DNA of 39,717 nt from Verrucomicrobiales bacterium (GTDB lineage: Bacteria > Verrucomicrobiota > Verrucomicrobiia > Limisphaerales > UBA9464). The stretch is from NCBI GenBank assembly GCA_005793375.1, contig SXSK01000271.1, positions 1-39,717 of the forward strand. Reading direction: 5' to 3'. Positions within the stretch are counted from its first letter, which is position 1. The number at the start of each line of letters is the position of its first letter. Below, piece by piece: positions 164 to 25,601 of the stretch. The notes under the pieces were generated by a model. The model ran no database searches, was not told the DNA's origin, and saw nothing but the letters and a program-made list of their open reading frames with translations. The position numbers were made by a program, and so were the translations under genes.

Positions 164-2137
164 TTGAGACAAATGGTTTGGTTGTGGCTTTTGGGCTGGG
201 TGTGCGCCGAAAGGTTAGCATCGGGCAGTGTGACAATTGGCTGGAACGCGAGTCCGGATCCCAGCGTGATTGGTTACAAGATTTATTATGGGACGGAAAG
301 TCGCAACCCCGCGGCATGGGTGGATGTCGGGAATCAGCTGATGGGTTCGGTTGAAGGGTTGACGGCTGGAACGACCTACTTCTTTGCGGTGACAGCTTAT
401 GCGGGCAGCGGCCTGGAAAGCGATTTTTCAGCTGAAGTGAGCACTACCTTGGCGGGGACCGACCCTCCCAGTGTCTCCCTGGTAGCTCCCGTCACGGGCT
501 CGAGCTTTTTAGCGCCAGCAAGTCTAGGGTTGGTGGCATCGGTCACGCCGAATGGTCGGGTCATTCAGCGGGTACGGTTTCTTCAGAATGGCTTGTTGAT
601 TGGGGAGGTAGCGACGTCGCCATACACTTTCACGTGGAACAATGTCGCGGCGGGCAACTATCGACTCCAAGCGGAAGTCGTTTTCGATGGGGGGCAGACG
701 GTGGTTTCGGCCAGCAGTTCGGTCACCGTCAATGCCGCATCGACGTCGCCAACCATAGCGATGGCGAGTTCGTTATCCGAAACGCTTTTTGAAGCTCCAG
801 CGAATGTTCCCCTGGCGGCGCTGGTGGTTGCAGCTGGGCGCACGATCCATCGGGTCCACTTTTACAATGGATCGACTTACCTCGGTGCAGACACGACACA
901 GCCTTACACGTTCGTTTGGACCGGAGTTCCAGAAGGGACGTATTGGGTGAGTGCTCGAATGTTGTATGGTAAATCCAGCGTGTTGGGGTCGGCGTCTGTC
1001 CGAGTTTCGGTGGTTCGATCGCTTCCCCCGCCGCCAGTTGCTCCAACTGTCTCGTTGGTCTCGAATGTGGCGGGGTCCACGGTGACGGCGCCCTATTCCA
1101 CCGAACTGGTCGCGTCGGTGGTGGCCAATGGGCATATTATTTCCAAGGTGCAGTTTTACGACGGGTTGACTCTACTGGGTGAGGATGCTTCCGCCCCCTA
1201 TGAGTTCTCTTGGGTCGAGGTCGCGGTGGGTGAGCATAGCGTGGTGGCGAGAGTCGTCTATGCGACCAATGCTACTTTGGATTCAGAATCCGTCCAATTC
1301 TGGGTGGAGCCTCCACCCCCAACCGTTGTTTGGCAGGGGCCCCTAGATGGCTCGAGTTACTCCAAGATCACCCCCCTACAACTGGGTGCCAACGTGACTT
1401 CGAACGGTCATGAAATCAGTCGAGTTGACTTCTATTCGGGAGAAAGCCTCCTGGGCTCCGATTCCTCGGAACCTTACAGCCTGAGTTGGGCTGGGAACAT
1501 CCTGGGGGTCCAAGCGATGCGAGCGTTGGCGATTTATGGCAATTCACGGGTTGCCGAATCTACCATAGCGACCATCACGATGGGTGAATTGACTCCGCCT
1601 TGGCTGACAGGGGACATTGGAAGTGTGGGGGTGAGTGGTCGCGTGAGTCTTACTGGGGGGGTGCAGGTTGTGGAAGGTGCTGGCGTCATCTTTGGTACGA
1701 GCGACGCGTTTCATTTCCTCTATCAGACATTGAGTGGGGATGGGGAGATTCGCGTCCGATTGAACTCGACGCAATTCTCGGAATCTGGGGGGAGTATTGG
1801 CGTCATGATTCGCGACAACCTGACCAGCGGCTCGAAACACGCGTTCCTGGGCATTTTACCGTCAGGAACCTTGCGGTGGCAACGTCGCACGGATCCTGCA
1901 GGGGCAACGTGGATCGGGCACTATGGAAGCGCGATCCCTCCTTCAATTCGGCTGCGGCTGGTGCGAACTGGGAGCCTGCTAACAGGTTACAGTTCGGTCA
2001 ATGGCCAAGACTGGACCGCAGTTAACTCCCGTCAAATCGAGATGACGGCCAACGTATTTGTCGGATTGGCCGTTGCTTCGGGCAGTAATGCGACCCTGAG
2101 TCGGGCGGTGTTCTCAGAACTGACAGTGGTCCCATAG
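164..2137 (+). CDS. Secreted multidomain protein: N-terminal fibronectin-III-like domain, four tandem Ig-like (Big-type) repeats, C-terminal DUF1349/laminin-G-like domain
   Basis: 657 aa ORF (TTG start at 164, in-frame ATG at 173). FN3-like N-terminus (NASPDPSVIGYKIYYG...LTAGTTYFFAVTAY). Four repeats of about 90 aa sharing xVxFYxGxxLLGxDxxxPYxFxW. C-terminus GDGEIRVRLNSTQFSESGGSIGVMIRDNLTSGSKHAFLGI. Confidence 0.8.
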   Translation: MRQMVWLWLLGWVCAERLASGSVTIGWNASPDPSVIGYKIYYGTESRNPAAWVDVGNQLMGSVEGLTAGTTYFFAVTAYAGSGLESDFSAEVSTTLAGTDPPSVSLVAPVTGSSFLAPASLGLVASVTPNGRVIQRVRFLQNGLLIGEVATSPYTFTWNNVAAGNYRLQAEVVFDGGQTVVSASSSVTVNAASTSPTIAMASSLSETLFEAPANVPLAALVVAAGRTIHRVHFYNGSTYLGADTTQPYTFVWTGVPEGTYWVSARMLYGKSSVLGSASVRVSVVRSLPPPPVAPTVSLVSNVAGSTVTAPYSTELVASVVANGHIISKVQFYDGLTLLGEDASAPYEFSWVEVAVGEHSVVARVVYATNATLDSESVQFWVEPPPPTVVWQGPLDGSSYSKITPLQLGANVTSNGHEISRVDFYSGESLLGSDSSEPYSLSWAGNILGVQAMRALAIYGNSRVAESTIATITMGELTPPWLTGDIGSVGVSGRVSLTGGVQVVEGAGVIFGTSDAFHFLYQTLSGDGEIRVRLNSTQFSESGGSIGVMIRDNLTSGSKHAFLGILPSGTLRWQRRTDPAGATWIGHYGSAIPPSIRLRLVRTGSLLTGYSSVNGQDWTAVNSRQIEMTANVFVGLAVASGSNATLSRAVFSELTVVP

Positions 2138-2149
2138 TTTCCAGACCGT

Positions 2150-3127
2150 TTGCCTATGAATCGAATTTTAAACCATGTCTGTTGGGCCGTGCTGATTGTG
2201 ATGTATGGCGGATGGATTCGAGCGGCTGAATCCAGCAAGGGTTCTGGGGCTGCCGGCATGGTTTTAGATGACGTGTTCGCCAGCCCAATCTCCGCTCTGG
2301 AACTGGAGGCTCTGCGGACGATTGGTTCGGTCGGTTTGTCCTATTCGGTGGCCACTGATGACGATTTGGACGAAATTGTCGGCGAAATTTCGACTTATTC
2401 CTTTCGACGCGATGCGACCCAAATCGTGCGACTGGGATGCTGGGGAGACGGTACATTGCACGCGCACCTGATGGATCGATGGATGATGTTGCAGCCGGTG
2501 GAAGTGCTGGAATGGTTCGATGGGCTTCGACCTGAGGAGAAAACCTCGACATTGATAAAGCAGGTGGGTATCGCAGGGATCCATGTGAATTCCCGATGGG
2601 CTGTGGAATGGTTGGTTTCAAGACATCAAGCCGGAGAGACAACCAACGAAGACTGGTTGACCCAGTTGTATGAAGCGACACGGTTCGAGCCTAGGCGGGT
2701 CGCCGAGTTGGCCCTCGAATTGCAGGAAGGCGCTGAACGCGACGCTTTGGTAGAACATGCAGTCCAGGAGTGGGCGGGCAGAGAACCGAGTGCTGTGGAC
2801 ATTTGGGTCCGTGGGTTCGAAGAGAGCCCTTTGAAGCAGCGGTTGATCGCTGCGCAAGTGTTGGGTATGGCGGCCCTGGACATACTTCAAGCAACCACGA
2901 TGGCGGCGACACGATTGAATCCGGGCTCTTTACAAAACCGTGTGGTCATCTCACTGGTGCAGCGTTGGGCTCAGAACGCCCCAATGGCAGCGGGTGCCTG
3001 GGTTTTGGCATTTGAAAATTCGACGCTCCGAAAACTCGCAGTGGGTCAGCTCTTGGAGCAGTGGAAGCTGATGGATCCAGACTCTTCGGCTCGGTGGGCT
3101 CTTATCCATACACCTCTAAGCCACTGA
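2150..3127 (+). CDS. Hypothetical secreted alpha-helical protein
   Basis: 325 aa ORF directly downstream of the previous gene; hydrophobic N-terminal signal-like segment; Ala/Trp-rich helical repeats (e.g. VISLVQRWAQNAPMAAGAWVLAF). Confidence 0.65.
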   Translation: MPMNRILNHVCWAVLIVMYGGWIRAAESSKGSGAAGMVLDDVFASPISALELEALRTIGSVGLSYSVATDDDLDEIVGEISTYSFRRDATQIVRLGCWGDGTLHAHLMDRWMMLQPVEVLEWFDGLRPEEKTSTLIKQVGIAGIHVNSRWAVEWLVSRHQAGETTNEDWLTQLYEATRFEPRRVAELALELQEGAERDALVEHAVQEWAGREPSAVDIWVRGFEESPLKQRLIAAQVLGMAALDILQATTMAATRLNPGSLQNRVVISLVQRWAQNAPMAAGAWVLAFENSTLRKLAVGQLLEQWKLMDPDSSARWALIHTPLSH

Positions 3128-3148
3128 CTGTGCCCCGAGTCTGTGGCG

Positions 3149-4858
3149 TTAGCGATCCATCGGTTCGGCAATCAGATCGTAATCGGTGTGACCGATGATC
3201 CGAACATGGGCGAAATTCCCTGCAGGTAATTCCTCTCGAATGTAGATTCTGCCGTCGATATCCGGCGCATCCGCTTCGCCTCGTGCCACCGAGTAAAGAT
3301 GGCGCTTGGACAGGCGGGTCTTGCTGGTTTCAGTTTGGCGAATCAGGCCGTGTTCCCAGGAACTAACTTGAGCCTTTTGCAAGGCTGAAGCGGAGGCCCG
3401 TCCCTCAACGAGAACCTTCATCGTCTTGCCAACGAAGGACTCGGCCACAGCCACAGCCACCTCATGCTGGGCGGCCATTGCCCGTGTGCGGCGATCTTGG
3501 CGCGTTTTGGCGGCCAACTGACTCTCCATTTTTCCTGCCACCGTGCCATCTTCCTGAGAGTAAGCAAAAATTCCCAGCCGTTCAAACCGAGTCTCGCGTA
3601 TGAACTCCAGCAACGTCTCCACGTGAGCCTCGGTTTCACCGGGAAATCCCACGATAAAGGTCGTTCGCAAGGCAATTCCTGGAATACCAGCCCGTATGCT
3701 ACGGATTAAGTCGCGGATGTATTGGCCGGTGGTTTCGCGGCGCATCCGCTGAAGCAGATCGTCATGGATGTGCTGGAGCGGCATGTCGACATAACGGGCG
3801 ACTTTCTGGCTGCGGGTGATGGTTTGAATCAATGAATCCGTCCAATGCGCCGGATGGGTGTAAAGCAGCCGAATCCAAAAATCGCCTGGGATGGCATTGA
3901 GTTCCTCAAGCAAGGTGCCGAGAGTGGTGGCATCTGATGCCAATGCTCGAGTGGCGGCGTTAAACTTTTCCGGCGAGGAGATGGCCCGCGTATGGTTAGG
4001 ACGCAAATCGAGTCCGTAGTACGTCGAATCTTGAGAAATGAGGTTCAACTCTTTGACACCCTCGCTCACGAGCGCCTTGGCCTCGGCGACAATGTCCGAC
4101 TGAACACGGCTTCGGTGTGAACCCCGCATGCGGGGGATGATGCAAAAACTGCATGGATGGTTGCAGCCTTCCGCGATCTTGACATAGGCGAAGTGTTTGG
4201 GCGTCAACCGAAACCGGGGGGTGTCAAATTGAGGAATGTAGTTGGGTCGGGTATGGACATTGAGGATGGGGCTTGAGTGGCTTTCGGGCTTCGTGGTGAG
4301 GACCGTTCTAGTTTTGCCGAACTGCTGCGTGCCTCGGAGGTCCGGCTCATGGCTGTGAGGGACGTCACCCCTTTTTTCATCCACGGCTGCGAGTCGAGCT
4401 TTGACACTCGATTTCTTAGGCCTGGGCGTGGCGCCGTAATTCGCGATCATATCCGACCGCCTTTGGATAGCCTCTTCAATGATCCCTCCCACTTGTTCCA
4501 CTTGGTCGATTCCCATGAAGACATCCACCTCCGGCATTAGTTTGGGAAGTTCCTCGCGAAATCGTTGAGGAAGGCATCCTGCGACGATAACTGCCTGGCC
4601 GGGCTTGTTTTGACGACGCAACTCAGTGGATTCCAGGATCGCGTCGACGCTTTCCTCTTGGGCGGCATCAATAAACGAGCAGGTGTTGACAATCACCGCA
4701 TCGGCCATGGTGGGATCGTTCACTATTTCAATCCCCGCTTTCAGGAGCGATCCCAGCATAATTTCGGCATCGACCAGATTCTTGGCGCAGCCGAGGGAGA
4801 TGAGGCCCACTCGGCGCGAGGATGACTTTTTTTTGCTGGTGGTCGTAGAGTCGGTCAC
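3149..4858 (-). CDS. rimO: Ribosomal protein S12 methylthiotransferase RimO (radical SAM), with extra insertions
   Basis: VGLISLGCAKNLVDAEIMLG, VIVNTCSFIDAAQEES, radical-SAM motif EGCNHPCSFCIIPRMRG, TFIVGFPGETEAHVE, C-terminal TRAM-like domain. Confidence 0.92.
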   Translation of the reverse strand: MTDSTTTSKKKSSSRRVGLISLGCAKNLVDAEIMLGSLLKAGIEIVNDPTMADAVIVNTCSFIDAAQEESVDAILESTELRRQNKPGQAVIVAGCLPQRFREELPKLMPEVDVFMGIDQVEQVGGIIEEAIQRRSDMIANYGATPRPKKSSVKARLAAVDEKRGDVPHSHEPDLRGTQQFGKTRTVLTTKPESHSSPILNVHTRPNYIPQFDTPRFRLTPKHFAYVKIAEGCNHPCSFCIIPRMRGSHRSRVQSDIVAEAKALVSEGVKELNLISQDSTYYGLDLRPNHTRAISSPEKFNAATRALASDATTLGTLLEELNAIPGDFWIRLLYTHPAHWTDSLIQTITRSQKVARYVDMPLQHIHDDLLQRMRRETTGQYIRDLIRSIRAGIPGIALRTTFIVGFPGETEAHVETLLEFIRETRFERLGIFAYSQEDGTVAGKMESQLAAKTRQDRRTRAMAAQHEVAVAVAESFVGKTMKVLVEGRASASALQKAQVSSWEHGLIRQTETSKTRLSKRHLYSVARGEADAPDIDGRIYIREELPAGNFAHVRIIGHTDYDLIAEPMDR

Positions 4859-5064
4859 AGGAAGAGGACACTAGTCTGCTCTTATGGGCTTGGGCAATCT
4901 CGGACGCTGGACCAATGATGCGGTAGCCAGGTATTTCTACGGACAAGCCTGAATAACGTGGCAACTCTATTTTGTTGGGGATGGACAAGAAATGGCTAGC
5001 GTGCGACAAAAGGGAGGAAGCGCGAGGCAAGATTTGGGTAGAAGTTAAAAACAGTTAGCAAATC

Positions 5065-5985
5065 TTGGCAAAACAAGTTCAACAAACAACGACTAGATCT
5101 GGTATGAACAACCCCGATTCCATGCTGCAGACTTTGGTAAAATCACCGCTGTATCAGGCGTACGAGAAGGCGTTTGGCGATGCGACGGGATTGCCGTTGA
5201 CGTTGCGTAGTCCGCACGCCTGGGAAGTGGCGCACGCTCGAAACCACCACAAGAACCCCTTCTGTACGTTTATGGCCAAGCAGAGCCGGACCTGTGCGGC
5301 GTGCCTTCGTGTCCAGCAAGAATTGTCTGAGAACGCGCAGACCGAGCCCTACACGACCACCTGTTTTGCAGGACTATGTGACAGTGCCGTACCGGTGAGG
5401 TTGGGCGACCAGATCCTGGGTTTTTTGCAGACGGGGCAAGTCATGTTGCGTAAGCCCTCTGAAGCGCAGTTCAATCGGTTGGAAGAGCAACTGAACGAAT
5501 GGAAGATTCCGCACGCGACGGAAGAATTGCGGGCGGCGTGGTTGCAGTCGCCAGTAATGAACAAGAAAGGGTATGATGCCGCTCTGGGTTTAGTGAAGGT
5601 TTTTGCTGAGCATTTGTCGATAGCTAGCAACCAGTTGGCCATCCGGGCGGAGAACACGGAACCGCCGGCGATCAAACGGGCTCGAGTGTTCATCCAGGAG
5701 CATCTTGGGGAGCGGTTGTCGCTCAGCATGGTAGCCGGAGCCCTGCATATGAGCACATTTTACTTCTGCAAGATGTTCCGAAAGAGCACGGGTCTCAATT
5801 TTACTGACTTTGTGGCTCGGGAACGGATCGAGCGGGCCAAGAATCTGCTGCTGAACCAAAATCTTCGCGTGAGTGAGATTGCTTACGAGATTGGATTCCA
5901 ATCATTGACTCACTTCAATCGGATCTTTCGGCGCATTGTCGGGCGTACGCCCACGGAGTTCCGCGGCCGCAATGTCACCGGTTGA
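5065..5985 (+). CDS. PocR ligand-binding domain / AraC-family transcriptional regulator
   Basis: PocR-like N-terminus with Cys pattern (NPFCTFMAKQSRTCAACLRVQQ...TTTCFAGLCDSAVPVRLGDQILGFLQTGQV). AraC HTH C-terminus (RLSLSMVAGALHMSTFYFCKMFRKSTGLNFTDFVARERIERAKNLL...IAYEIGFQSLTHFNRIFRRIVGRTPTEFR). TTG at 5065 or ATG at 5104 as start. Confidence 0.88.
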   Translation: MAKQVQQTTTRSGMNNPDSMLQTLVKSPLYQAYEKAFGDATGLPLTLRSPHAWEVAHARNHHKNPFCTFMAKQSRTCAACLRVQQELSENAQTEPYTTTCFAGLCDSAVPVRLGDQILGFLQTGQVMLRKPSEAQFNRLEEQLNEWKIPHATEELRAAWLQSPVMNKKGYDAALGLVKVFAEHLSIASNQLAIRAENTEPPAIKRARVFIQEHLGERLSLSMVAGALHMSTFYFCKMFRKSTGLNFTDFVARERIERAKNLLLNQNLRVSEIAYEIGFQSLTHFNRIFRRIVGRTPTEFRGRNVTG

Positions 5986-6114
5986 CTGGTTCCGGACGTC
6001 GGGGTTTGAGTTGGCAATGAAACTCCGGATAGTGATGTCCGGAATTGCCATGTTGGAATCCTTGGATCATCCTCTTGGCGCACCACAATGGCGCGTTAAC
6101 TCATCACACTCAAT

Positions 6115-6750
6115 ATGGCTCTGAGACTTGGGGATATTGCCCCTGATTTTACGGCGGACACCACGGAAGGTTTGATTCGATTTCACGAATGGCTGGGGAA
6201 TTCGTGGGGAGTCCTATTCTCACATCCCGCTGACTACACTCCGGTTTGCACGACAGAACTCGGTACTTTGGCAAAGCTCAAGGCCGAGTTTGCCGGGCGA
6301 AACGTCCAGGTGGCAGCAATCAGTGTGGATCCCATCGAAGCGCATCGAGGCTGGGTGGGTGACATCAATGAGACTCAGTGCACGAGCGTCAATTTTCCCA
6401 TCATCGCCGATCCTGAGCGCAAGGTGGCCATGTTGTACGACATGATCCATCCCAACGCCGACGATAAGTTCACGGTGCGGTCGGTTTTCATCATTGGTCC
6501 CGACAAGAAGGTCAAACTGATGATTACCTACCCGGCATCTACAGGTCGGAACTTTGTTGAGTTGTTACGCGTATTGGATTCTCTCCAATTGACGGCGAAG
6601 TATCGTGTGGCCACTCCAGCCGACTGGAAAGACGGCGATGATTGTATCATTACGCCTGCTGTCAAAGACGACGAAGCCGTCACGCTGTTTCCGAAGGGGA
6701 TTCGAAAGGTTAAGCCGTACCTGCGGTACACACCGCAGCCGAATCGCTAA
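6115..6750 (+). CDS. Peroxiredoxin, AhpC/TSA family, 1-Cys Prx6-like
   Basis: 211 aa; LGDIAPDFTADTTEG, peroxidatic motif HPADYTPVCTTELG, Prx6-like C-terminus (ATPADWKDGDDCIITPAVKDDEA). Confidence 0.93.
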   Translation: MALRLGDIAPDFTADTTEGLIRFHEWLGNSWGVLFSHPADYTPVCTTELGTLAKLKAEFAGRNVQVAAISVDPIEAHRGWVGDINETQCTSVNFPIIADPERKVAMLYDMIHPNADDKFTVRSVFIIGPDKKVKLMITYPASTGRNFVELLRVLDSLQLTAKYRVATPADWKDGDDCIITPAVKDDEAVTLFPKGIRKVKPYLRYTPQPNR

Positions 6751-6751
6751 A

Positions 6752-6770
6752 AGCGCGGGCAGACCGCGCT
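6752..6770. terminator. Putative hairpin terminator between convergent genes (peroxiredoxin and aldehyde dehydrogenase)
   Basis: AGCGCGG-GCAGA-CCGCGCT, 7-bp perfect stem 2 nt after the peroxiredoxin stop; no strong U-tract. Confidence 0.4.
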
Positions 6771-6909
6771 CGATTTGACCTGCAAACGCCAGTTGCCCGC
6801 CACCGATCTAACGCAAGATCTTGGCGCCGAAGTCGTTTGCTTGGTTGGCACACCACGGGCAATGCTGGGGAAACAGCGACATCGAACTGCCGCGCTCTCA
6901 CCAGGGTGC

Positions 6910-8352
6910 TCACCAAGCCCGCTCGATACTCCGGCGCTGCCAAAGGAATTCGAACATGTTGCCCTCGTGGGGTTGATCCCACGAAATTTTCATCGTGGAT
7001 ATCGGTCCGATATTGAGTCGGTCGATATCGGAGAAGGCTTCCAGTTGTTCGATGAATCCCTGGTCTTTGGTGATGGCGGAGCAGGCAAGGGTGTAGCCGA
7101 TTTTAGAGAGCATCTCGCTTTGGGGGCAGGTGACGACGCTCGCAAACGGGCAAAGATACTCTCGATTGGCCAATGGATGGGCGAAGGAATCGCAACGCAC
7201 GATGGTCGGCCGCATGTAGGTTCCACCCTCGAACACTACCTTGCGTGGTCCTTGGCGATATTTTGCCGTGACATCTTCCACGCCGGGTACCTTAAGTCCG
7301 TCCTCAATCTGGGTGTCGATGAAATCAGCCATCTTGGGATTGGCGAACCCTGAAAGCCGGGCGGATTCGTCGTCGGGTCTTGTGGGAACGAACGGCCCGA
7401 GCTTTTGAGCCAGCGCGTCGGCGATTTCCGCCGCATACTTCGAGACTACCACGGCACTGGCGTTGATGCATGATCGCCCACCGTTGTCACTGATGGCACC
7501 AGCGATCGTATCGATGTACTCAGGCCAGTTCTCGATGCAATCATCGCCGATTAGAAACTTACTCCACCCTGGCCCGTGAACCTCGATGGCCGGGTTGTTG
7601 GCGTACTGATCGGTGGTGCTCTTGTCACCAAAGATCAACGCGCGGCCGCAGCTGTTTAAGATGGTGGCGGCGCCGTCGTGATCGGTCGGGTAAAAGCCAA
7701 ACGCTTCGGCCGGAACTCCAGCGGTGATAAAGGCTTGGATCAATCGGAAGGGAGTCCAAGGCTCTTCTTTGCCGGGCTTAATGATCACCGGGGTCTTGAG
7801 AGCGACGGCCGGGAGCCAGAGTGAGTTGACCGCCGGGGAATTGCTCGGCATGACCAAGCCCAAGGCCTGGCAGGTGGGAAAGAAGCTTAGTTTGGTGCCA
7901 AATTGCTCGCCATAGCCTCGGTCGATAATGGTGAAATCGAGACCCCGAGACAATCCATTCAGTATTTCAGCGAGATGAGTGAGCGCGTAGTGCAGTTTAG
8001 CCATGTTCCGCCGAACCATGACGTGCGGCAGACCTGAAGTGAGGCTGAGGGTTTCGACGTACTGTTGTGGCGACTGAGAGTGGCCACGGTCCCCGAGCGG
8101 TAGCGTACCCTCCAGGAAAAGGGCGCCGGCTTTGGCGGAGAGGTCCACCAATTCGGCGACCGTAAACTTCTTGAGCGCTGCTCGTGCGGCTCCCAGCCTG
8201 CTGAGGTCCCGCTTCAGAATGCCACTATTCACCTGGGAAACCAGGGCTTTGACTTCGCCTGATCGGTGGTCTTTGACCTCAATCTTGTCGAGGGAGTCGT
8301 AGGCGCGGCCGAGACGCAGCGTCGGGAGATGCGGGATATCGCTCATGCTCAA
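6910..8352 (-). CDS. Aldehyde dehydrogenase family protein
   Basis: 480 aa; ALDH-fold motifs LGLVMPSNSPAVNSLWLPAVALKTPVIIKPGKEEPWTPF and catalytic-Cys region DNGGRSCINASAVVVSK. Confidence 0.8.
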   Translation of the reverse strand: MSMSDIPHLPTLRLGRAYDSLDKIEVKDHRSGEVKALVSQVNSGILKRDLSRLGAARAALKKFTVAELVDLSAKAGALFLEGTLPLGDRGHSQSPQQYVETLSLTSGLPHVMVRRNMAKLHYALTHLAEILNGLSRGLDFTIIDRGYGEQFGTKLSFFPTCQALGLVMPSNSPAVNSLWLPAVALKTPVIIKPGKEEPWTPFRLIQAFITAGVPAEAFGFYPTDHDGAATILNSCGRALIFGDKSTTDQYANNPAIEVHGPGWSKFLIGDDCIENWPEYIDTIAGAISDNGGRSCINASAVVVSKYAAEIADALAQKLGPFVPTRPDDESARLSGFANPKMADFIDTQIEDGLKVPGVEDVTAKYRQGPRKVVFEGGTYMRPTIVRCDSFAHPLANREYLCPFASVVTCPQSEMLSKIGYTLACSAITKDQGFIEQLEAFSDIDRLNIGPISTMKISWDQPHEGNMFEFLWQRRSIERAW

Positions 8353-8428
8353 ATTATCTGCGCTAAAATGTTACGTCTGCGTAGTGATGGCAACGGAAAG
8401 ATTCGGATTCGTTCTGTCCATTGAGTCG

Positions 8429-10399
8429 CTATCGAAACCGCCAGCGTTCGTCAAAGAATCCGGCTGCGATGATTCCCTGGGGTGCCTGCCTCGGGTTGAT
8501 TTCACGGACTGCCCAATCAGGGAGCCAGGGTGTTTGGCGAGCATTGGTGCCTTTCCAAGCAGCGAATGTGTGGCCGCTGTTTAAAACAATGTAACGTTTG
8601 GGGTTGAGTGGATTCGGGTAAATCATCATTGGAACATGTGTGGACGCTGGGATTTCGATTCGTCCAAGCACGACACTCCGCCGATTCCATTGGAGGGGAA
8701 GTTTGCGCAAGATTTGTTTTAAAACGCGATTATTGCCTGGGTCACCCCAAAGGATGAGATGGTTCTCGGCGACATCCGAGGCTGTGAGGTCTTGGTCGTT
8801 TCGAAGCCGCAGGTCGGCGCGGAATTGTCCGCGCCAATCTTCGATAAATTGTTGGAGCGCCGCTTCGGACCAGGTTCCGACGGCGGGATTCCAAGCCGTT
8901 CCAGTGGGGCGCACGACGAGGAATCGATCCATGAACGCATCATCCATCGGCCCTTGCAGACCGGGTTGTTTACGGAGCGATGGGAGGGAGGAACCCACTC
9001 GCCAGCGGCCGTTCTTCAAGGTGAATTGAACCGTACCTGGGGATTGGCGACGGTGGTTTTCTTGGACATCGAGTGTCTGAGAGCCGATCTGAATGTGCCA
9101 GGTGCCGAGCCCGAGTTCTGGTGGATCCATCAGTCTGAACGCCGTGATGTTGGAAAGACTGAGGCGAACCTGGGAGGGCGGATCCAAATCCGCATGAACT
9201 CGGGCAGGTTTCCAGTGGTTCTCCAGAGCCAGGATCTGGAACCAAGCCAAGCGCGCTCCCTCTGGGTATCTTAATGTCGGCGTGCTGAAGTTGAGACGCC
9301 TCGGATAAGCATCCTTTGGCGTCGCCATTAGAGTGTCAAACGACTCGGCGAGACGGGCCTTGGCGCTGGGTTCAAAGCGATGTTCCACGCCGGGACCGAG
9401 GATGTGATGCAGGGAGATACCCTCCGTTTGCATGGCCGCTGCCATGGTATCGGCGGCAAGTCGTTGCCGATCCAGTTCACCGCTATACGCAATGACATCG
9501 AGGTGCTGGAAATTGGCGGCGTAACCCGGGACATCATAAAGCTGCCATAAGGTTTGTTCCCAGGGAGCAATCTGGATCGGTTGCTTCAGGATGCCAGTGT
9601 AACCTGCGGTATCGACAAAACCGGCACCGGGATTTGCGGCGCGCCAAAAGCCTGGGTGATGTGCGGCGAGATGCCAAGTGCCGGCGCCCCCCATGGAAAA
9701 CCCGCGGATGGATCGTCGGCGTGGATCGGTTCCGTAGGCCGTTTCGGCATGCGCTACTGCCTCAAAGACATCGGTCTCACCTGCGAATTTGTAGGCATTG
9801 CAGTATCGGCCGTAAGGATGGAGCACGATGCTATTAGCGGGGGAGAATTCGCCTCGGGAGCGGAGGCGTTCGCCGAGAAACTTGAGCTCCGTCCGTTTCT
9901 CGTCGCGACCGGCGAGCCAGACGTCGAGGCGGAGCGATGGGGACGTCTTAGACGAATTCGTTGGAATAACGACACCGTAAGGTTGGATGGAGTCATCGAT
10001 CCTGGAACGGAAACCGCGGATGACGAGTCCTGTTTGCTGTGTCCACGGGGCGATGCCGGACCGCAACTGAGCGGCGCGTTCGTGGCCGAGGTTCAATAAT
10101 TGATCCGCGAGGGCGAATTGATTGGTGTGATGAAATTCATTATAGGTGAGTGCCCAATGGACGGCTTTATGGAGTATCGCCACATCTGGCAAGAGTTCTT
10201 GGCAGAGGATCTCTGGGCGGGTGCGGAGTTCGGTCAATTCCGCTTCGAGTCTCGCCGAACGATGCTCGAGATCCGAACGGATGAATGGCGGCACCTCGAT
10301 TCCGCGAGGTGGGACCAGACCCGCGCTGAAGAGTGAGTGGAATGATGGCGGAGCCCAGAAGGTCAGCAATGCCAAGCCGTGTATCCAGAGCCGGTTCAT
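8429..10399 (-). CDS. Secreted alpha/beta hydrolase (prolyl-oligopeptidase / esterase-like)
   Basis: 656 aa; nucleophile-elbow RRRSIRGFSMGGAGTWHLAAHHPGFW; N-terminal hydrophobic segment; start overlaps the upstream GNAT stop by ATGA. Confidence 0.72.
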   Translation of the reverse strand: MNRLWIHGLALLTFWAPPSFHSLFSAGLVPPRGIEVPPFIRSDLEHRSARLEAELTELRTRPEILCQELLPDVAILHKAVHWALTYNEFHHTNQFALADQLLNLGHERAAQLRSGIAPWTQQTGLVIRGFRSRIDDSIQPYGVVIPTNSSKTSPSLRLDVWLAGRDEKRTELKFLGERLRSRGEFSPANSIVLHPYGRYCNAYKFAGETDVFEAVAHAETAYGTDPRRRSIRGFSMGGAGTWHLAAHHPGFWRAANPGAGFVDTAGYTGILKQPIQIAPWEQTLWQLYDVPGYAANFQHLDVIAYSGELDRQRLAADTMAAAMQTEGISLHHILGPGVEHRFEPSAKARLAESFDTLMATPKDAYPRRLNFSTPTLRYPEGARLAWFQILALENHWKPARVHADLDPPSQVRLSLSNITAFRLMDPPELGLGTWHIQIGSQTLDVQENHRRQSPGTVQFTLKNGRWRVGSSLPSLRKQPGLQGPMDDAFMDRFLVVRPTGTAWNPAVGTWSEAALQQFIEDWRGQFRADLRLRNDQDLTASDVAENHLILWGDPGNNRVLKQILRKLPLQWNRRSVVLGRIEIPASTHVPMMIYPNPLNPKRYIVLNSGHTFAAWKGTNARQTPWLPDWAVREINPRQAPQGIIAAGFFDERWRFR

Positions 10400-10863
10400 C
10401 TGAGGACAAAGTCCCGCTCCAACACTTCGTAACCGGCGGGCTGGAGGCCCAACTTGAGGTATGTTCGTCGGGCTGGAGCGTTGTGATGATCCATGTACAG
10501 GCGCAATCCGCAGACTTGTTCAGCATTCTTTGCGAGAGTTTCCACATGCCGATAGAGCGCCCGAAAAACACCTTGTCGTCGGACCTCGGGTAGCACATAG
10601 ACACTCTGAATCCACCAAAACATTCCATTTCGCCAATCGCTCCACTCATAGGTCACCATGAGTTGGCCGACAATGGATCCGGAGTTTTCGGCGACGAAAT
10701 AGGATCCTTTGCTGGAATCTGAAAGCACCGCATGCACACCAGGAATAATTCGTCCTGGGTCAAGTTCCCGGCCCTCGGTTTCGCGTGCGAGAGCCCGGTT
10801 GTACTCCGCGATGGTCGCGGTATCGGCTTCGGTGGCCTTGCGAATATTGGATGACGTCGACAT
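10396..10863 (-). CDS. GNAT family N-acetyltransferase
   Basis: 155 aa; GSIVGQLMVTYEWSDWRNGMFWWIQSVYVLPEVRRQGVFRALYRHVETLAK...NAPARRTYLKLGLQPAGYEVLE. Confidence 0.88.
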   Translation of the reverse strand: MSTSSNIRKATEADTATIAEYNRALARETEGRELDPGRIIPGVHAVLSDSSKGSYFVAENSGSIVGQLMVTYEWSDWRNGMFWWIQSVYVLPEVRRQGVFRALYRHVETLAKNAEQVCGLRLYMDHHNAPARRTYLKLGLQPAGYEVLERDFVLR

Positions 10864-10945
10864 GAGTTATGATGGGGCGACATCGACGAACTCAACCGGT
10901 CGCAGATGGACCCGTGATGTAGTGACGGCACTCCGATGGCTCTGG

Positions 10946-12229
10946 TTACCGATTCCCGATGCACCAGAGTGTCTTTTCGGTGCGGATGAACACCTTGCCC
11001 TCTGAAACAGCCATGCTGGCTTGAGCGCGTTCGCCATTTAGTGAATTGCGAGAAAGAATCCGGAATTCAGGCCCCTCTGCGACGACGGTGGTTACGCCGT
11101 CCTCCGCCAGGAAGTAGATCCGGCCATTGGCGTAGAGCGGTGATGTGCAAAAATTGCCTCCCACACGTTCGGAGTAAAGGATTTCCCCAGTCGTCGCCCG
11201 ATAACAATGGGCGATGCCTCCGTCAGTGATGGTGTGGAGATGCGGTTTGAGGTGAAGAAGAGCGGGTTGAGTGGGGCAACCTTTGCGTTGTTCCCAGGCT
11301 ACGTGGGAAGCACTGACATCGCCTTCGCCGCCGAGTTTGAAGGCACGCAATGTGGTCTTTTCAAATCCAGAAGATGTGAACAATAATCCGTCTCCAAGGG
11401 CGGGATTGGGTGTGACGCCTTCGCCTTGGTTGTAGGCGGTCCATATCCGCGCGCCGGTCTTCAAGTCAAAGCCTTGAGCGGCGTCGCCGGCGCAGCTGAT
11501 GACCTGGGTTTTGCCCTGTTCCGTCACGAACAACGGGGTGAGGTGTGAGACTCGTGACTTGCCCCGAGGGGTGCGCCAGAGCTCGCGGCCTGTTTTGGCA
11601 TCGACACCCACGACGAAGGCTTTATCCCAAGGAATCTGCCAGCCGAGTTTCTCATCGTTCGACACGTTGGGGAAATTACCTGCGGCAGTCACCCGATTGC
11701 TGCCGTCATAGGCCATGACAAGGATGCCATCGCGCACGACCGGTGAGGAACTAAGCCCATGCCGGCTGTAAAATTCGACGGAGCGATGGGTCCAAACCAC
11801 GCTGCCCTTGAAATCCACGGCAACCATGCTGCCATCTCCAAAAACGCTGTAGATTCGTTCACCATCGGTCGTTGGCGTTGGCGTTGCGTAGGAATTTTTA
11901 CCCTCTTTGCGCCGGGTCACCTGATCGAAAACATGGGTATCCCAGATGACACTGCCTGATTTGGCATCGAGGCAGAGGACATGGCAGGAGGCACCGGCGG
12001 CGCGAGTGCCCGTGAGAAATACGCGATTGCCCCAAACAATCGGGGAAGACCAGCCATCTACGCCGGTTTGCACCTTCCAAACCAAGTTGGAGTCGGAACT
12101 CCATTGCCAGGGGACGTGAATCTCTGAAGAATGGCCTTGTCCGGAAGGGCCGCGATATTGCGGCCAGTTTTCGGCGGAACAGCAGGACACAGCGAGGAGC
12201 GTTAGGAACGACCAAAGTACAGGCTTCAT
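10946..12229 (-). CDS. PQQ-like beta-propeller repeat protein, secreted
   Basis: ORF opens at 12382; a signal-peptide-like start MKPVLWSFLTLLAVSCCSAENWPQYRGPSGQG lies at 12229. PQQ-like blades (VWKVQTGVDGWSSPIVWGNRVFLTG; FVVGVDAKTGRELWRTPRG). Confidence 0.85.
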   Translation of the reverse strand: MKPVLWSFLTLLAVSCCSAENWPQYRGPSGQGHSSEIHVPWQWSSDSNLVWKVQTGVDGWSSPIVWGNRVFLTGTRAAGASCHVLCLDAKSGSVIWDTHVFDQVTRRKEGKNSYATPTPTTDGERIYSVFGDGSMVAVDFKGSVVWTHRSVEFYSRHGLSSSPVVRDGILVMAYDGSNRVTAAGNFPNVSNDEKLGWQIPWDKAFVVGVDAKTGRELWRTPRGKSRVSHLTPLFVTEQGKTQVISCAGDAAQGFDLKTGARIWTAYNQGEGVTPNPALGDGLLFTSSGFEKTTLRAFKLGGEGDVSASHVAWEQRKGCPTQPALLHLKPHLHTITDGGIAHCYRATTGEILYSERVGGNFCTSPLYANGRIYFLAEDGVTTVVAEGPEFRILSRNSLNGERAQASMAVSEGKVFIRTEKTLWCIGNR

Positions 12230-20477: not shown

Positions 20478-21227
20478 TCAATGGATTCCCAGGCCTTCGC
20501 TGTTCAATACGAGGGTTTCGTAGCGAGAGACACTGGACGATTGACGTCGCAAGAGCGCAGCCTCAATGGTCTTGCCGGCGAGATTTGCCTTCCATCCGGA
20601 CTGACGTTCCGATTCGGCTGGAGTCGTCGGCGGAAAACTCATTCCTTCCTTGAGACACCACCAAGTCTGGAGCAGGAGGTCGGCAATGGCCTCCAGCGAA
20701 GTCCGGGATTCGATCTCCCGCCTCAACCATTCCTGGGCGGCAGACTCGGCCTCGGTTTCCGGCGCGACGATGCAGACGCCGCCGGACTGCGTCACAAAAC
20801 TGCCATCAAAACGAAGGCGCACCAGATGATCGTGAGCCGGTGTGTCTCCTAGTTCCGCGAACACGAACTCACCCAACACGGGGGCGGTGAAGAGTTGTTC
20901 GAAGTTCTGTTTCACTTGGGCACTCAAGCCAAAACCGACGAGTCGACGGAGACTGACGTCTTGGGCGGCCCGTGTAAACGCTTCGATGTGAGCTGCATCA
21001 ATGGCGGTTTGACGAATACGTTCGATATCGGCTGGATGGCCGAGGCCTGCCATAGCGTGGCGATCGTGGAGTTCGAAGACTTTGCTGGAACCGGAACCGA
21101 CACCGAGGAGGAGGATGCCGGCCGGCATGCTCACGGCGAAAGCGGGGCTGCCACCCTTGAGTTGTTCCCGGACGTAGTCGCGCCGGTTCGCGATGGCTTC
21201 CAACCAGCGATAGGGTTCGTCGGTCAT
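20478..21227 (-). CDS. prcA: 20S proteasome alpha subunit
   Basis: 249 aa; PYRWLEAIANRRDYVREQLKGGSPAFAVSMPAGILLLGVGSGSSKVFELHDRHAMAGLGHPADIERIRQTAIDAAHIEAF resembles actinobacterial PrcA; last gene of the mpa-dop-pup-prcB-prcA order. Confidence 0.88.
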   Translation of the reverse strand: MTDEPYRWLEAIANRRDYVREQLKGGSPAFAVSMPAGILLLGVGSGSSKVFELHDRHAMAGLGHPADIERIRQTAIDAAHIEAFTRAAQDVSLRRLVGFGLSAQVKQNFEQLFTAPVLGEFVFAELGDTPAHDHLVRLRFDGSFVTQSGGVCIVAPETEAESAAQEWLRREIESRTSLEAIADLLLQTWWCLKEGMSFPPTTPAESERQSGWKANLAGKTIEAALLRRQSSSVSRYETLVLNSEGLGIH

Positions 21228-21278: not shown

Positions 21279-22073
21279 TCAACCAGCGTTGGCATTGGGA
21301 TCGGTGGCCAATGCGGCGGCTTGGTCCGAGTCGGAGACCGTTTGGATGCCGCTGCTAGTCAGGATCTTGAGTGTGGCAAATTGGTTGCTGCTCGGATCCA
21401 CGCCACCGGTGGCGGAATCCAGTTCCGATGCCGTCATGAGCAACCGCAGTGCAAAACGCGTGGCTTCAAGTCGATTCATTTCTGAAGGACGTGGTGTTCC
21501 GTGGCGTTCGTGAAAGGCGAATATGCTTCGAATGCTGGCGCTGCCGCTGCCGCTGGCAGCGTGACCGACGGCCTGAAACTGAGCGCCCAAGGGATCGTAG
21601 AAATAGATGTGCGGCGCGGGAGATTTTTCACTGAAATCGACGCCAGCGAACAGCGGGACGACAATGCCAACACCCTGCATGGTCATGGGGAGATTATCGC
21701 GCAGTAGTCGGGCGAGGGCGCGGACACGGGCGGCGAGGCTGAGCGGTTGCAGTTGGCTCCGGCGATAATACTCAAACGATGTTTGAAGTACCCGGGCCAT
21801 TTCGAATGCCGTTGCGGGCACCCCAGCGATGGCGAGCAACGACGTGGCATCGATCTCCAAAATCTTTTCGATTTTGTCGGTGACGATCAAATTCCCCGCG
21901 GTGGCGCGTCGATCGCCCGCCATCAAGACGCCTTCGGCGAAATGAAAGGCGAACACCGTTGTCGCCTGGGTTTGGTTCGGCATTGAGCCGATGGGGTGCT
22001 GGGCGAAGAGGCGTGTTTCATGCTGTGCCAGGAGCGACAAAAAGTCTCCGGCGATGGCGGTGGTTTGGGTCAT
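21279..22073 (-). CDS. prcB: 20S proteasome beta subunit (Ntn hydrolase) with propeptide
   Basis: 264 aa; ATTVFAFHFAEGVLMAGDRRATAGNLIVTDKIEKILEIDATSLLAIAGVPATAFEMARVLQ; predicted catalytic Thr38 after a 37-aa propeptide (7 aa if Met31 is the start). Confidence 0.93.
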   Translation of the reverse strand: MTQTTAIAGDFLSLLAQHETRLFAQHPIGSMPNQTQATTVFAFHFAEGVLMAGDRRATAGNLIVTDKIEKILEIDATSLLAIAGVPATAFEMARVLQTSFEYYRRSQLQPLSLAARVRALARLLRDNLPMTMQGVGIVVPLFAGVDFSEKSPAPHIYFYDPLGAQFQAVGHAASGSGSASIRSIFAFHERHGTPRPSEMNRLEATRFALRLLMTASELDSATGGVDPSSNQFATLKILTSSGIQTVSDSDQAAALATDPNANAG

Positions 22074-22127: not shown

Positions 22128-22310
22128 CTATTGGCCGGTGCGTTGACGGTACCGTTTGGCTTGGTCTGGATCGACCTTGCGCATGCGTTTGAGCAGTTCC
22201 TGCACGTTCGGTTTGTCCAATTTGGGTGAGGCTGGACCGTCTCCACCCCCACCCCCAGGCGCGGGAACGATCGAGCGCGGTTTTTGAAATTGTTCCGGCA
22301 TGAGTGTCAT
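22128..22310 (-). CDS. pup: Pup / UBact-type protein modifier ending in Gly-Gln
   Basis: 60 aa: MTLMPEQFQKPRSIVPAPGGGGGDGPASPKLDKPNVQELLKRMRKVDPDQAKRYRQRTGQ; disordered Gly-rich N-terminus, helical C-half, C-terminal GQ; ATGA overlap with the dop stop and placed just before prcB. Confidence 0.9.
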   Translation of the reverse strand: MTLMPEQFQKPRSIVPAPGGGGGDGPASPKLDKPNVQELLKRMRKVDPDQAKRYRQRTGQ

Positions 22311-23818
22311 AAGTTTAGGAGTGTTCTTAATTCATCAGGACTGGAAGCCTGTTCGATGCACGCACGATAACGGAGAACCTCCGATTCTGCGAACAAATCC
22401 AACAACGAGATCTTCCAGACGCCGGTCTGTGATTGCAAGGTGACATGATCCCATTGAGCGGAGAGTACGGCGCTTGGAAATTTGCGAATGCAGCCACCAC
22501 GGATGGCTGCACGCGTGGTCTGGGGTGCTTCATTCATGGCTCGATGGATGTCGGATTCATTGGGGACACCTTGAAACGCTCCGCTTTGTTCCAATCCAGA
22601 GAACAGGCCTTCAGTGGGATCTAATAAATGGTAGGCCAAATCCAGGCTTCGCACCCAGGGGTCGTTTTCGGGGACGGTTTCTGTCTCCATAAACTCCCGG
22701 ATTAACGCATGCTTGGCAACCCAATCCAATTGATCGCGACAGCTCAACGGATCCTGGGCCAAGTCGTTAAGTATCGCCGCCCAGTCGTGGACGAGTTGCT
22801 GTCGGTTTGGTTGATGGAGGTCGCAATAATCCCGGACAGCTTTCAGGTAGGCGTGTTGAACCTCGAAGGAGTCTGAGATCAGACGGCTGTCTGGAGAGCC
22901 ACCGCGAACCCAGCGTGGATCGCGCGACAGTTCTTGGAGTAATGAGAGTGGGTGCTCGAGCAGGGGCAACGTTCGGCTCAGATCGGGATTCGCGACTAAC
23001 GCTTCCAGAACCAACGCCGTGGTGCCGACTTTAAGGCGGGTGGCGAACGGGCTCATGTTGGCGTCACCAAGGATCACATGGAAGCGGCGCCAGCGGTTTG
23101 GGTTGGCGTGCGGTTCATCACGGGTGTTGATGATGGGCCGCCGCTGCATGGTGTCGACGCTCTGAAGTTCCGTGAAGAAATCCGCCCGCTGCGATATTTG
23201 AAAGGCGCTGTTGAGGAATCGATCCTCCTCCTCGGTGGCGAATTTGCCGGCCCCCGTGAACATCTGGCGTGTGACGAGGAATGCCTGGATACCGCGCACC
23301 AAAGTCTCCCAGGGCAGAGAACGGGGCAGCAGATAATTCTCGTGGCACCCATAGCTGTGGCCGCGAAAATCGGTGTTGTTCTTGTAGAGGCGGACTTTTC
23401 CGGGACCGGTTTCACTCAAATGTTCGGCGCATGCAGCGGCCATCCGTTCGCCAGCGCGATCCTGAACCACCAACTCGTCGGCGGTCGCGCACTCCGGTGT
23501 GCAATACTCCGGATGGGCATGATCGTTGTAGAATCTGGCACCGTTCCCGAGAATGAGATCACTCTTGATCTCGCTAAACGAAAGCGGACGTGACGCGTCC
23601 TGCTCAAAATAATTGGCCTCGTCCGTGTCCTGGCGGAGTTCCGAGACTCGAAACCCGCGGGCGTCGATGTGGGGATCTTCGCAGGAATAGTCCCATCGCA
23701 TGCGCACCCCAGTCTCGCGGGCGGCACGGACCAATGCGATGGATTCCGCCACGACATCGATGGACTCTTCCGTGTCTCGAGTGATGCCAAATTCCGTCTC
23801 GAGCCCGAACAAGATCAT
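22307..23818 (-). CDS. dop: Pup deamidase/depupylase Dop
   Basis: Likely ATG at 23818 (ORF opens at 23947): MILFGLETEFGI, MRWDYSCEDPHIDARGF, NGARFYNDHAHPEYCTPEC, RLYKNNTDFRGHSYGCHENYLLPR, FQISQRADFF, IINTRDEPHANPNRWRRFHVILGDANMS. Confidence 0.93.
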   Translation of the reverse strand: MILFGLETEFGITRDTEESIDVVAESIALVRAARETGVRMRWDYSCEDPHIDARGFRVSELRQDTDEANYFEQDASRPLSFSEIKSDLILGNGARFYNDHAHPEYCTPECATADELVVQDRAGERMAAACAEHLSETGPGKVRLYKNNTDFRGHSYGCHENYLLPRSLPWETLVRGIQAFLVTRQMFTGAGKFATEEEDRFLNSAFQISQRADFFTELQSVDTMQRRPIINTRDEPHANPNRWRRFHVILGDANMSPFATRLKVGTTALVLEALVANPDLSRTLPLLEHPLSLLQELSRDPRWVRGGSPDSRLISDSFEVQHAYLKAVRDYCDLHQPNRQQLVHDWAAILNDLAQDPLSCRDQLDWVAKHALIREFMETETVPENDPWVRSLDLAYHLLDPTEGLFSGLEQSGAFQGVPNESDIHRAMNEAPQTTRAAIRGGCIRKFPSAVLSAQWDHVTLQSQTGVWKISLLDLFAESEVLRYRACIEQASSPDELRTLLNL

Positions 23819-23888
23819 TGGGGTCTCGGGGTTCCAGGAGCTTGAGCAACGTTCCATCCAGGTTGAGGCGACTGGGTTGAGACCGGAT

Positions 23889-25601
23889 CTAAATGATGCC
23901 GGATTTTTCGGTTTTTCTCGGTCGGATCTGACCGAGGCGGACGACATTATCGGGATCGAAATCTGTGAGCTTCAGCCAATCTTCAGTCAGGTCGGTGGAT
24001 GGGAACAAATCGTTCTCCTGATGCTCCAGCTTGAGGGATTCGAGCAAGTCTTCACGGGTCAGAATCCCACCTGATTTCTCGCGGATGGCACGTTTGATGG
24101 CGAGTCCTTTGGCACGTTCTACGACGGCAGCGATGATGGCGCCGCTGGCGAGATCTCCGCGGTACAGGACATCCCGTTTGCCACTGCGGTAGCCGACCTC
24201 CAGAAATTCGTTCTCAGGAATTCGGGCGAAGTGGGCCTCGGTCACCGCTTGGACGAGGAGTTCGCGGGGTTCGGCGAGCGGAAGAGACGTGTGAAGGTAA
24301 ATTTCGTAAATGCGTTGTGCGCCGGCTTTGTCGGGGCGGCGTACCCGGATTTTGCGATCGATACGCCCGGGACGCAGGATTGCGGGGTCGATGAGATCGG
24401 CGCGGTTGGATGCGAGAATAACGACAACATTAGACAAAGGTTCGATGCCATCCATTTCCGTGCAGAACATGGGTACCAGGGTGGATAAGATGCTCGGGAC
24501 GCGCCCACCGCGACGGGTGCCTAGAATGCTTTCGGCTTCGTCGATGAAGAGGAAAGCGAGATGTCCGGTGGCGGCGCGTTCTCGGCATTGGGCAAAGAGA
24601 TCCCGAACCTGGCGTTCGCTTTCGCCGACCCACATGTTAAGGACCTCTGGGCCCTTGACGTGCAGAAAGAACTCCTGCCGGTCCTCGCCGGTTTGTTGGA
24701 GGATTTGTTGGCGGAGGTTGTAGGCGGTGGCTTTGCCAAGCAGCGTTTTGCCACAGCCGGGGGGGCCGTGGAGCAAAAATCCTTTGGGCACTGAATGACC
24801 AAACTTCCGAAACAAGTCCTGGTGGAGAAACGGCAGTTCGATGGCATCGCGAATCGCCTGAACCGCGTCGTCTTGTCCACCGATGGCAGTCCATGGGAGC
24901 GTGGAAACGCTTTCGATGGATCGATCGGTACGCCGGCCTTCAGCCAGGATTTCCAGGGCAACCCGGCTGTTGGAATCCAAACGGACCTCGAGTCCTGATC
25001 GGAGCTTGTCCTTGGTCAAGAGGAGCGATCGGATGACGATACTCCCGGACTGACCACTCTCGTTGCCCAATCGTAGACGTCCGTCGGGCAGAACTTGGTC
25101 AATCCGTGAAATGGGCCCGCTCAGGTCGTAGTCCAAGCAACGCACCACGGCGAATGCCTCATTGCACAAGACACGTTGGCCGGTCTCCAGCGAGAAGACG
25201 GGAATGGTCGGATCGACGCGGCAAACATAGTCGGTGCCGCCGATGCAAACCTGGGCTTTGTCCCGATCCACCGCTGTGATAAAAGTGCCGACGCGAAAGG
25301 CAGGCGACCGCAACTTCTCCACAATGCCGTCCATTTTTTCGAGCGCTTGGCGTGCGGCATCCTGCATGTTTTCCAGTTGCTCGACCCGTTCCCTTAGATA
25401 GACCAGATCCAGGAGGGCGGGGTGGCGTTGCGGGAGTTTTCCGGCGATAAGATCCAGTATCTGAAGAGTGCTAAGGCGATCCAAATCTTCGGAGGAGAGG
25501 AGGTCGCGTAAACTGCTGGTCTGGCCAGGGTCGGCCTGGGAAGTCGCGGGTTCGAAGAATGGTTGCCCGGCGTTTTGGGGCTTCTTTTTTGGCTCACCCA
25601 T
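23889..25601 (-). CDS. mpa: Proteasome-associated AAA+ ATPase (Mpa/ARC)
   Basis: 570 aa; N-terminal coiled coil (LVYLRERVEQLENMQDAARQALEKMDGIVEKL), OB domains, AAA+ core LPWTAIGGQDDAVQAIRDAIELPFLHQDLFRKFGHSVPKGFLLHGPPGCGKTLLGKATAYNL, LAFLFIDEAESILGTRRGG, RPGRIDRKIRV. Confidence 0.93.
   Translation of the reverse strand: MGEPKKKPQNAGQPFFEPATSQADPGQTSSLRDLLSSEDLDRLSTLQILDLIAGKLPQRHPALLDLVYLRERVEQLENMQDAARQALEKMDGIVEKLRSPAFRVGTFITAVDRDKAQVCIGGTDYVCRVDPTIPVFSLETGQRVLCNEAFAVVRCLDYDLSGPISRIDQVLPDGRLRLGNESGQSGSIVIRSLLLTKDKLRSGLEVRLDSNSRVALEILAEGRRTDRSIESVSTLPWTAIGGQDDAVQAIRDAIELPFLHQDLFRKFGHSVPKGFLLHGPPGCGKTLLGKATAYNLRQQILQQTGEDRQEFFLHVKGPEVLNMWVGESERQVRDLFAQCRERAATGHLAFLFIDEAESILGTRRGGRVPSILSTLVPMFCTEMDGIEPLSNVVVILASNRADLIDPAILRPGRIDRKIRVRRPDKAGAQRIYEIYLHTSLPLAEPRELLVQAVTEAHFARIPENEFLEVGYRSGKRDVLYRGDLASGAIIAAVVERAKGLAIKRAIREKSGGILTREDLLESLKLEHQENDLFPSTDLTEDWLKLTDFDPDNVVRLGQIRPRKTEKSGII

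Follow-up and report, generated by a model that had tools for sequence, protein, structure and literature searches.

The window, the whole stretch of 39,717 nucleotides of Verrucomicrobiales DNA that was analysed (contig SXSK01000271.1), contains a genuine gene for UBact, an already described ubiquitin-like tag, and is to be regarded as an ordinary new example of it, not as a discovery. UBact, a small protein that certain bacteria presumably join to other proteins and so direct these to the proteasome, was reportedly named by Lehmann et al. in 2017 (as cited in PMC12751074). The gene is accompanied by the enzymes and proteasome subunits expected of such a pathway, and this Verrucomicrobia genome very probably encodes a complete UBact-proteasome system in which the protein would act as a tag for proteasomal degradation.

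UBact gene and proteasome operon

Translation of 22128-22310 on the minus strand gives MTLMPEQFQKPRSIVPAPGGGGGDGPASPKLDKPNVQELLKRMRKVDPDQAKRYRQRTGQ followed by a stop codon, a product of 60 aa with the last residues KRYRQRTGQ. The ubact gene itself was placed, on the basis of PF20513, NF033388 and the alignment of relatives, at 22128..22301 (minus strand), where it would encode a modifier of 57 aa with the RTGQ end, starting from a conserved Met4; its alternative extent is 22128-22310 (minus strand, 60 aa) if the upstream ATG serves as start. The ORF matched the Pfam UBact family PF20513 with 77.3 bits (E = 7.2e-22; cut-off 27.8 bits) and the NCBIfam UBact family NF033388 with 76.8 bits (E = 1.1e-21; cut-off 35 bits), and its RTGQ terminus conforms to the UBact ending R-(T/S)-G-(E/Q). 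Both matches lie far above the cut-offs and bear out the sequence-only reading, which had taken the ORF for a Pup-like modifier with the UBact ending; the linker that it had described in the N-terminal half, a Gly/Pro-rich stretch, was likewise confirmed in the translation. Its remark that a gene this short is easily missed by annotation no longer holds, as curated UBact models now exist in both Pfam and NCBIfam.

For the last 30 codons of ubact, comparison of 86 distinct relatives gave a mean pN of 0.146 versus a pS of 0.728 (pN/pS ~0.2), and the two shifted frames gave the opposite pattern; the ubact frame is thus that of a protein under strong purifying selection. AlphaFold, run with 31 relatives, returned a model of low confidence (pLDDT 69, pTM 0.25) with a disordered N-terminal half and two helices, 33-42 and 47-55, in the C-terminal half. 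A 2008 paper (PMC2588565) predicted a two-helix (bihelical) core for Pup, and the modelled C-terminal half of UBact would, at low confidence, be in line with it. The profile of relatives found no related protein among solved structures, and scanning for promoters and terminators yielded no more candidates than shuffled sequence did.

The genes for Mpa/ARC, Dop, UBact, PrcB and PrcA follow each other on one strand in this order of transcription, as in the canonical UBact-proteasome operon, and the tag gene is thereby linked to a Dop/PafA-family enzyme, a Mpa-type ATPase and 20S proteasome genes. The order Mpa-Dop-UBact-PrcB-PrcA-PafA recurs in many relatives. The mpa/arc gene (23889..25601, minus strand) encodes a proteasomal AAA ATPase (TIGR03689 pup_AAA, 413 bits) with AAA and proteasomal-ATPase OB domains. 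The 20S proteasome beta subunit is encoded by prcB (21279..22073, minus strand; PF00227, 7e-25; TIGR03690, 153 bits) and carries its motif, the catalytic Thr1 being residue 38 (TTVFAF) and D17 and K33 being present. The product of prcA (20478..21227, minus strand) is very divergent as an alpha subunit: it scored 49 bits against the bacterial alpha model TIGR03691, below the cut-off of 139, and the Pfam search gave no match, while the position of the gene after prcB is conserved in relatives.

The dop gene (22307..23947 as the longest ORF, minus strand; PF03136, 472.8 bits) encodes a putative deamidase/de-conjugase of the Pup_ligase family. Its product scored 407 bits with the Dop model TIGR03688 versus 314 bits with the PafA model TIGR03686, the former value being below the NCBIfam Dop equivalog cut-off of 492, which is unsurprising in a distant lineage, and its best matches among solved structures were Dop (PDB 4b0r/5lrt, 2e-94). 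Alignment also revealed the Dop-loop, the segment of about 40 residues that is missing in PafA according to the definition in PMC7947786, whereas the second paralogue of the genome has no loop. These three lines of evidence support the identification of the neighbour of ubact as Dop rather than PafA, as had been proposed from the sequence. The longest dop ORF runs into mpa, and alignment with relatives places the true start probably near 23818 (MILFGLETEFG).

The second Pup_ligase paralogue was located on a different contig of the same genome (G000:C117:12738-14315) and scored 253 bits with the PafA model versus 241 bits with the Dop model. In the operons of many relatives pafA comes immediately after prcA, whereas in the source genome, a draft MAG (94% complete, 426 contigs), it is unlinked to the operon. 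The active-site motifs (GhExE and the catalytic-Asp region) are retained in both the window Dop and PafA.

In a profile search UBact was found above the cut-off in 10 of the 388 genomes of the phylum and in 10 of 38 near relatives, both sets including the source genome. Full-length Pup_ligase-family genes, two in each case, occurred only in those 10 UBact genomes of the 388, the largest match in the remainder being a 27-residue fragment in one genome, and both paralogues were present in all 19 UBact genomes examined. One genome (G424) has both ligase-family enzymes and no UBact; since its prcB reaches the contig end, its ubact gene probably falls in an assembly gap. Two weak matches in the phylum (G230 and G099) were rejected as UBact: they fell below the cut-off, form part of longer frames (682 and 363 aa) and come from genomes with no Pup_ligase gene. 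Viral UBact was likewise rejected: 42 viral contigs matched, but the five that were read encode a phage protein of 227 aa that resembles the family by chance along 28-34 residues and lacks a tag-like C-terminus.

A relative of the same family without UBact harbours a proteasome-less cluster (L133, G398:C62:6000-22000, positions 406-11199) for an E1-like ThiF protein, a JAB-domain protein, a Mpa-like ATPase, a Dop-like enzyme, a PafA-TPR fusion and an M50 protease, with a 66-aa ORF ending SGGQ between two ligase-family genes. The JAB protein was found in none of the others among 50 family genomes.

Terminal Gln, Dop and the proposed pathway

The pathway would begin with UBact produced with a C-terminal Gln, which Dop, encoded just upstream, would turn into Glu. 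PafA, encoded on the other contig, would link the gamma-carboxylate of this Glu to lysine residues on the targets; the Mpa/ARC hexamer would bind the tag, begin unfolding at the disordered Gly/Pro-rich N-terminus of UBact and pass the substrates to the PrcA/PrcB 20S proteasome; and Dop would additionally strip the tag from targets. The analysis itself established the gene and its family, that it is under selection, the operon, the two ligase-family enzymes and their strict co-occurrence with UBact, whereas we infer every catalytic step from mycobacterial pupylation (reviewed in PMC12288473 and PMC8223512), by way of enzyme homology, because UBact and Pup have no significant sequence similarity. 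Against the scheme count the end of Mpa, which is not a GQYL docking end, and the unlinked pafA in the draft MAG.

A tag that ends in Gln is consistent with deamidation by Dop, and this step can soundly be inferred from mycobacterial Pup. A second reading holds that the terminal Gln is incidental, Dop being kept mainly for tag removal and recycling, and the choice between Gln and Glu being close to neutral since an ever-present Dop can deamidate. It does not contradict deamidation, merely ranks it second, and the chances for and against it appear evenly balanced. The ending, whose conservation in close relatives had been put forward as a test, is RTG followed by Q or E in all 19 profile-found UBact genes of the phylum. 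In a larger set, drawn from a named genome collection, 68 distinct sequences end in Q and 18 in E; as one of the two seeds of that search was the motif RYRQRT and only sequences with a similar ending were read out, conservation of the ending is partly built into this set, but the choice of Q or E is not. On a quick PrcB tree with some long branches the ending switches at least 9 times, with 5 of the switches forced by well-supported branches, and Glu-ending UBact genomes retain both Dop and PafA. All three observations favour an incidental Gln, and the same argument was made for Pup: as many species encode a Glu-ending Pup, Dop would there serve primarily to remove the tag (PMC12288473). Gln and Glu are, however, clustered on the tree (none of 500 shuffles was as low), to which near-copies in the set contribute, so the ending is not fully free. 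Since Dop accompanies RTGE tags too, de-tagging would be the more general role of the enzyme, and deamidation alone does not explain its presence.

Translation start of ubact

The sequence-only reading had placed the start of the tag gene at 22310 and its translation under coupling to dop through an ATGA overlap. The overlap is present at 22307..22310 (minus strand), with the ATG at 22310-22308 and the dop stop TGA at 22309-22307, but its ATG is probably not the start that is used. In the alignment UBact relatives begin with MP(D/E)xxQK or similar, which corresponds to Met4 of the 60-aa ORF; the MTL extension that precedes it was not found in those relatives for which the region upstream was inspected; and in L137, the closest relative on the tree, a TGA stands in frame two codons before the equivalent start. 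By this comparison the start of ubact is most likely at 22301, 5 nt past the dop stop, and the gene probably extends over 22128-22301 with 57 aa. Coupling through the ATGA overlap is accordingly unlikely, even though the overlap exists, visual inspection upstream of ubact shows no obvious ribosome site and gaps of 3-5 nt between dop and ubact occur in some relatives too. Where dop precedes ubact in relatives, the two genes lie between 3 nt and several hundred nt apart, a few values being too large because they were measured from a later Met, and tight coupling of the two genes is therefore not general. For the window gene, coupling to dop by mere proximity is plausible from the spacing.

Comparison with Pup and related systems

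The possibility that the ORF encodes a Pup of the canonical actinobacterial type and not UBact agrees with its dop, mpa and 20S proteasome neighbours, its similar size, its Gly-rich disordered N-terminal half and its G-Q ending. It is nevertheless very improbable: the ORF matched the UBact models and no Pup model in Pfam at E values up to 1, hhalign against M. tuberculosis Pup (a query identical to PDB chain 7px9_G) gave a probability of 0.7%, the profile of relatives detected no Pup chain among solved structures, and the ORF ends in Thr-Gly-Gln, not in the Gly-Gly-(Gln/Glu) of Pup. That the frame between dop and prcB is open merely by chance can be dismissed, for although the ORF is short and GC-rich DNA abounds in small ORFs, the family E-values are near 1e-21, the low pN/pS is reversed in the other frames and the position is conserved in many genomes.

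The ATPase may provide a further difference from pupylation. Mycobacterial Mpa ends in the docking motif GQYL (PMC8223512), whereas the window Mpa/ARC ends in KTEKSGII, which is no GQYL/HbYX-type end, and two mostly aliphatic terminal residues with no penultimate Tyr were observed in 35 of 35 distinct C-termini of UBact-linked Mpa (VV in 12, II in 9, IV in 6, TI in 3, VI in 2, and AI, TV and MV). It is conceivable, if rather doubtful, that the UBact proteasome docks its ATPase by another C-terminal signal, next to which stands the very divergent PrcA; if true, the docking step would set the mechanism of the UBact system apart from that of mycobacterial pupylation.

With UBact as defined by PF20513 and NF033388 the window gene shares the family, the RTG(Q/E) ending, the Gly/Pro-rich N-terminal half, the mpa/dop/prcB/prcA operon and the two Pup-ligase paralogues, and it differs in nothing essential, its particulars being pafA on another contig, the length of 57 aa and the RTGQ variant. 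UBact is a recognised, little studied parallel to ubiquitin and Pup, of which this gene is a well-anchored example; its study shows repeated changes between Gln and Glu endings with Dop retained throughout, and indicates a correction of the start site. Knowledge of the family is unchanged by it, Pup/UBact in Verrucomicrobia having been published since 2008: the Pup-type tags with G(E/Q) endings reported then (PMC2588565) include a Methylacidiphilum orthologue that likewise has a predicted two-helix core and PafA-family and proteasome neighbours, and differs in genus and in having been named Pup. The Pup of Actinobacteria (M. tuberculosis, PDB 3m9d and 7px9) is likewise a small, disordered, Gly-Gln-ending tag that goes with Dop, PafA, Mpa and a 20S proteasome; it ends in GGQ and has no significant similarity to UBact by hhalign, yet UBact would be expected, by analogy, to work as it does.
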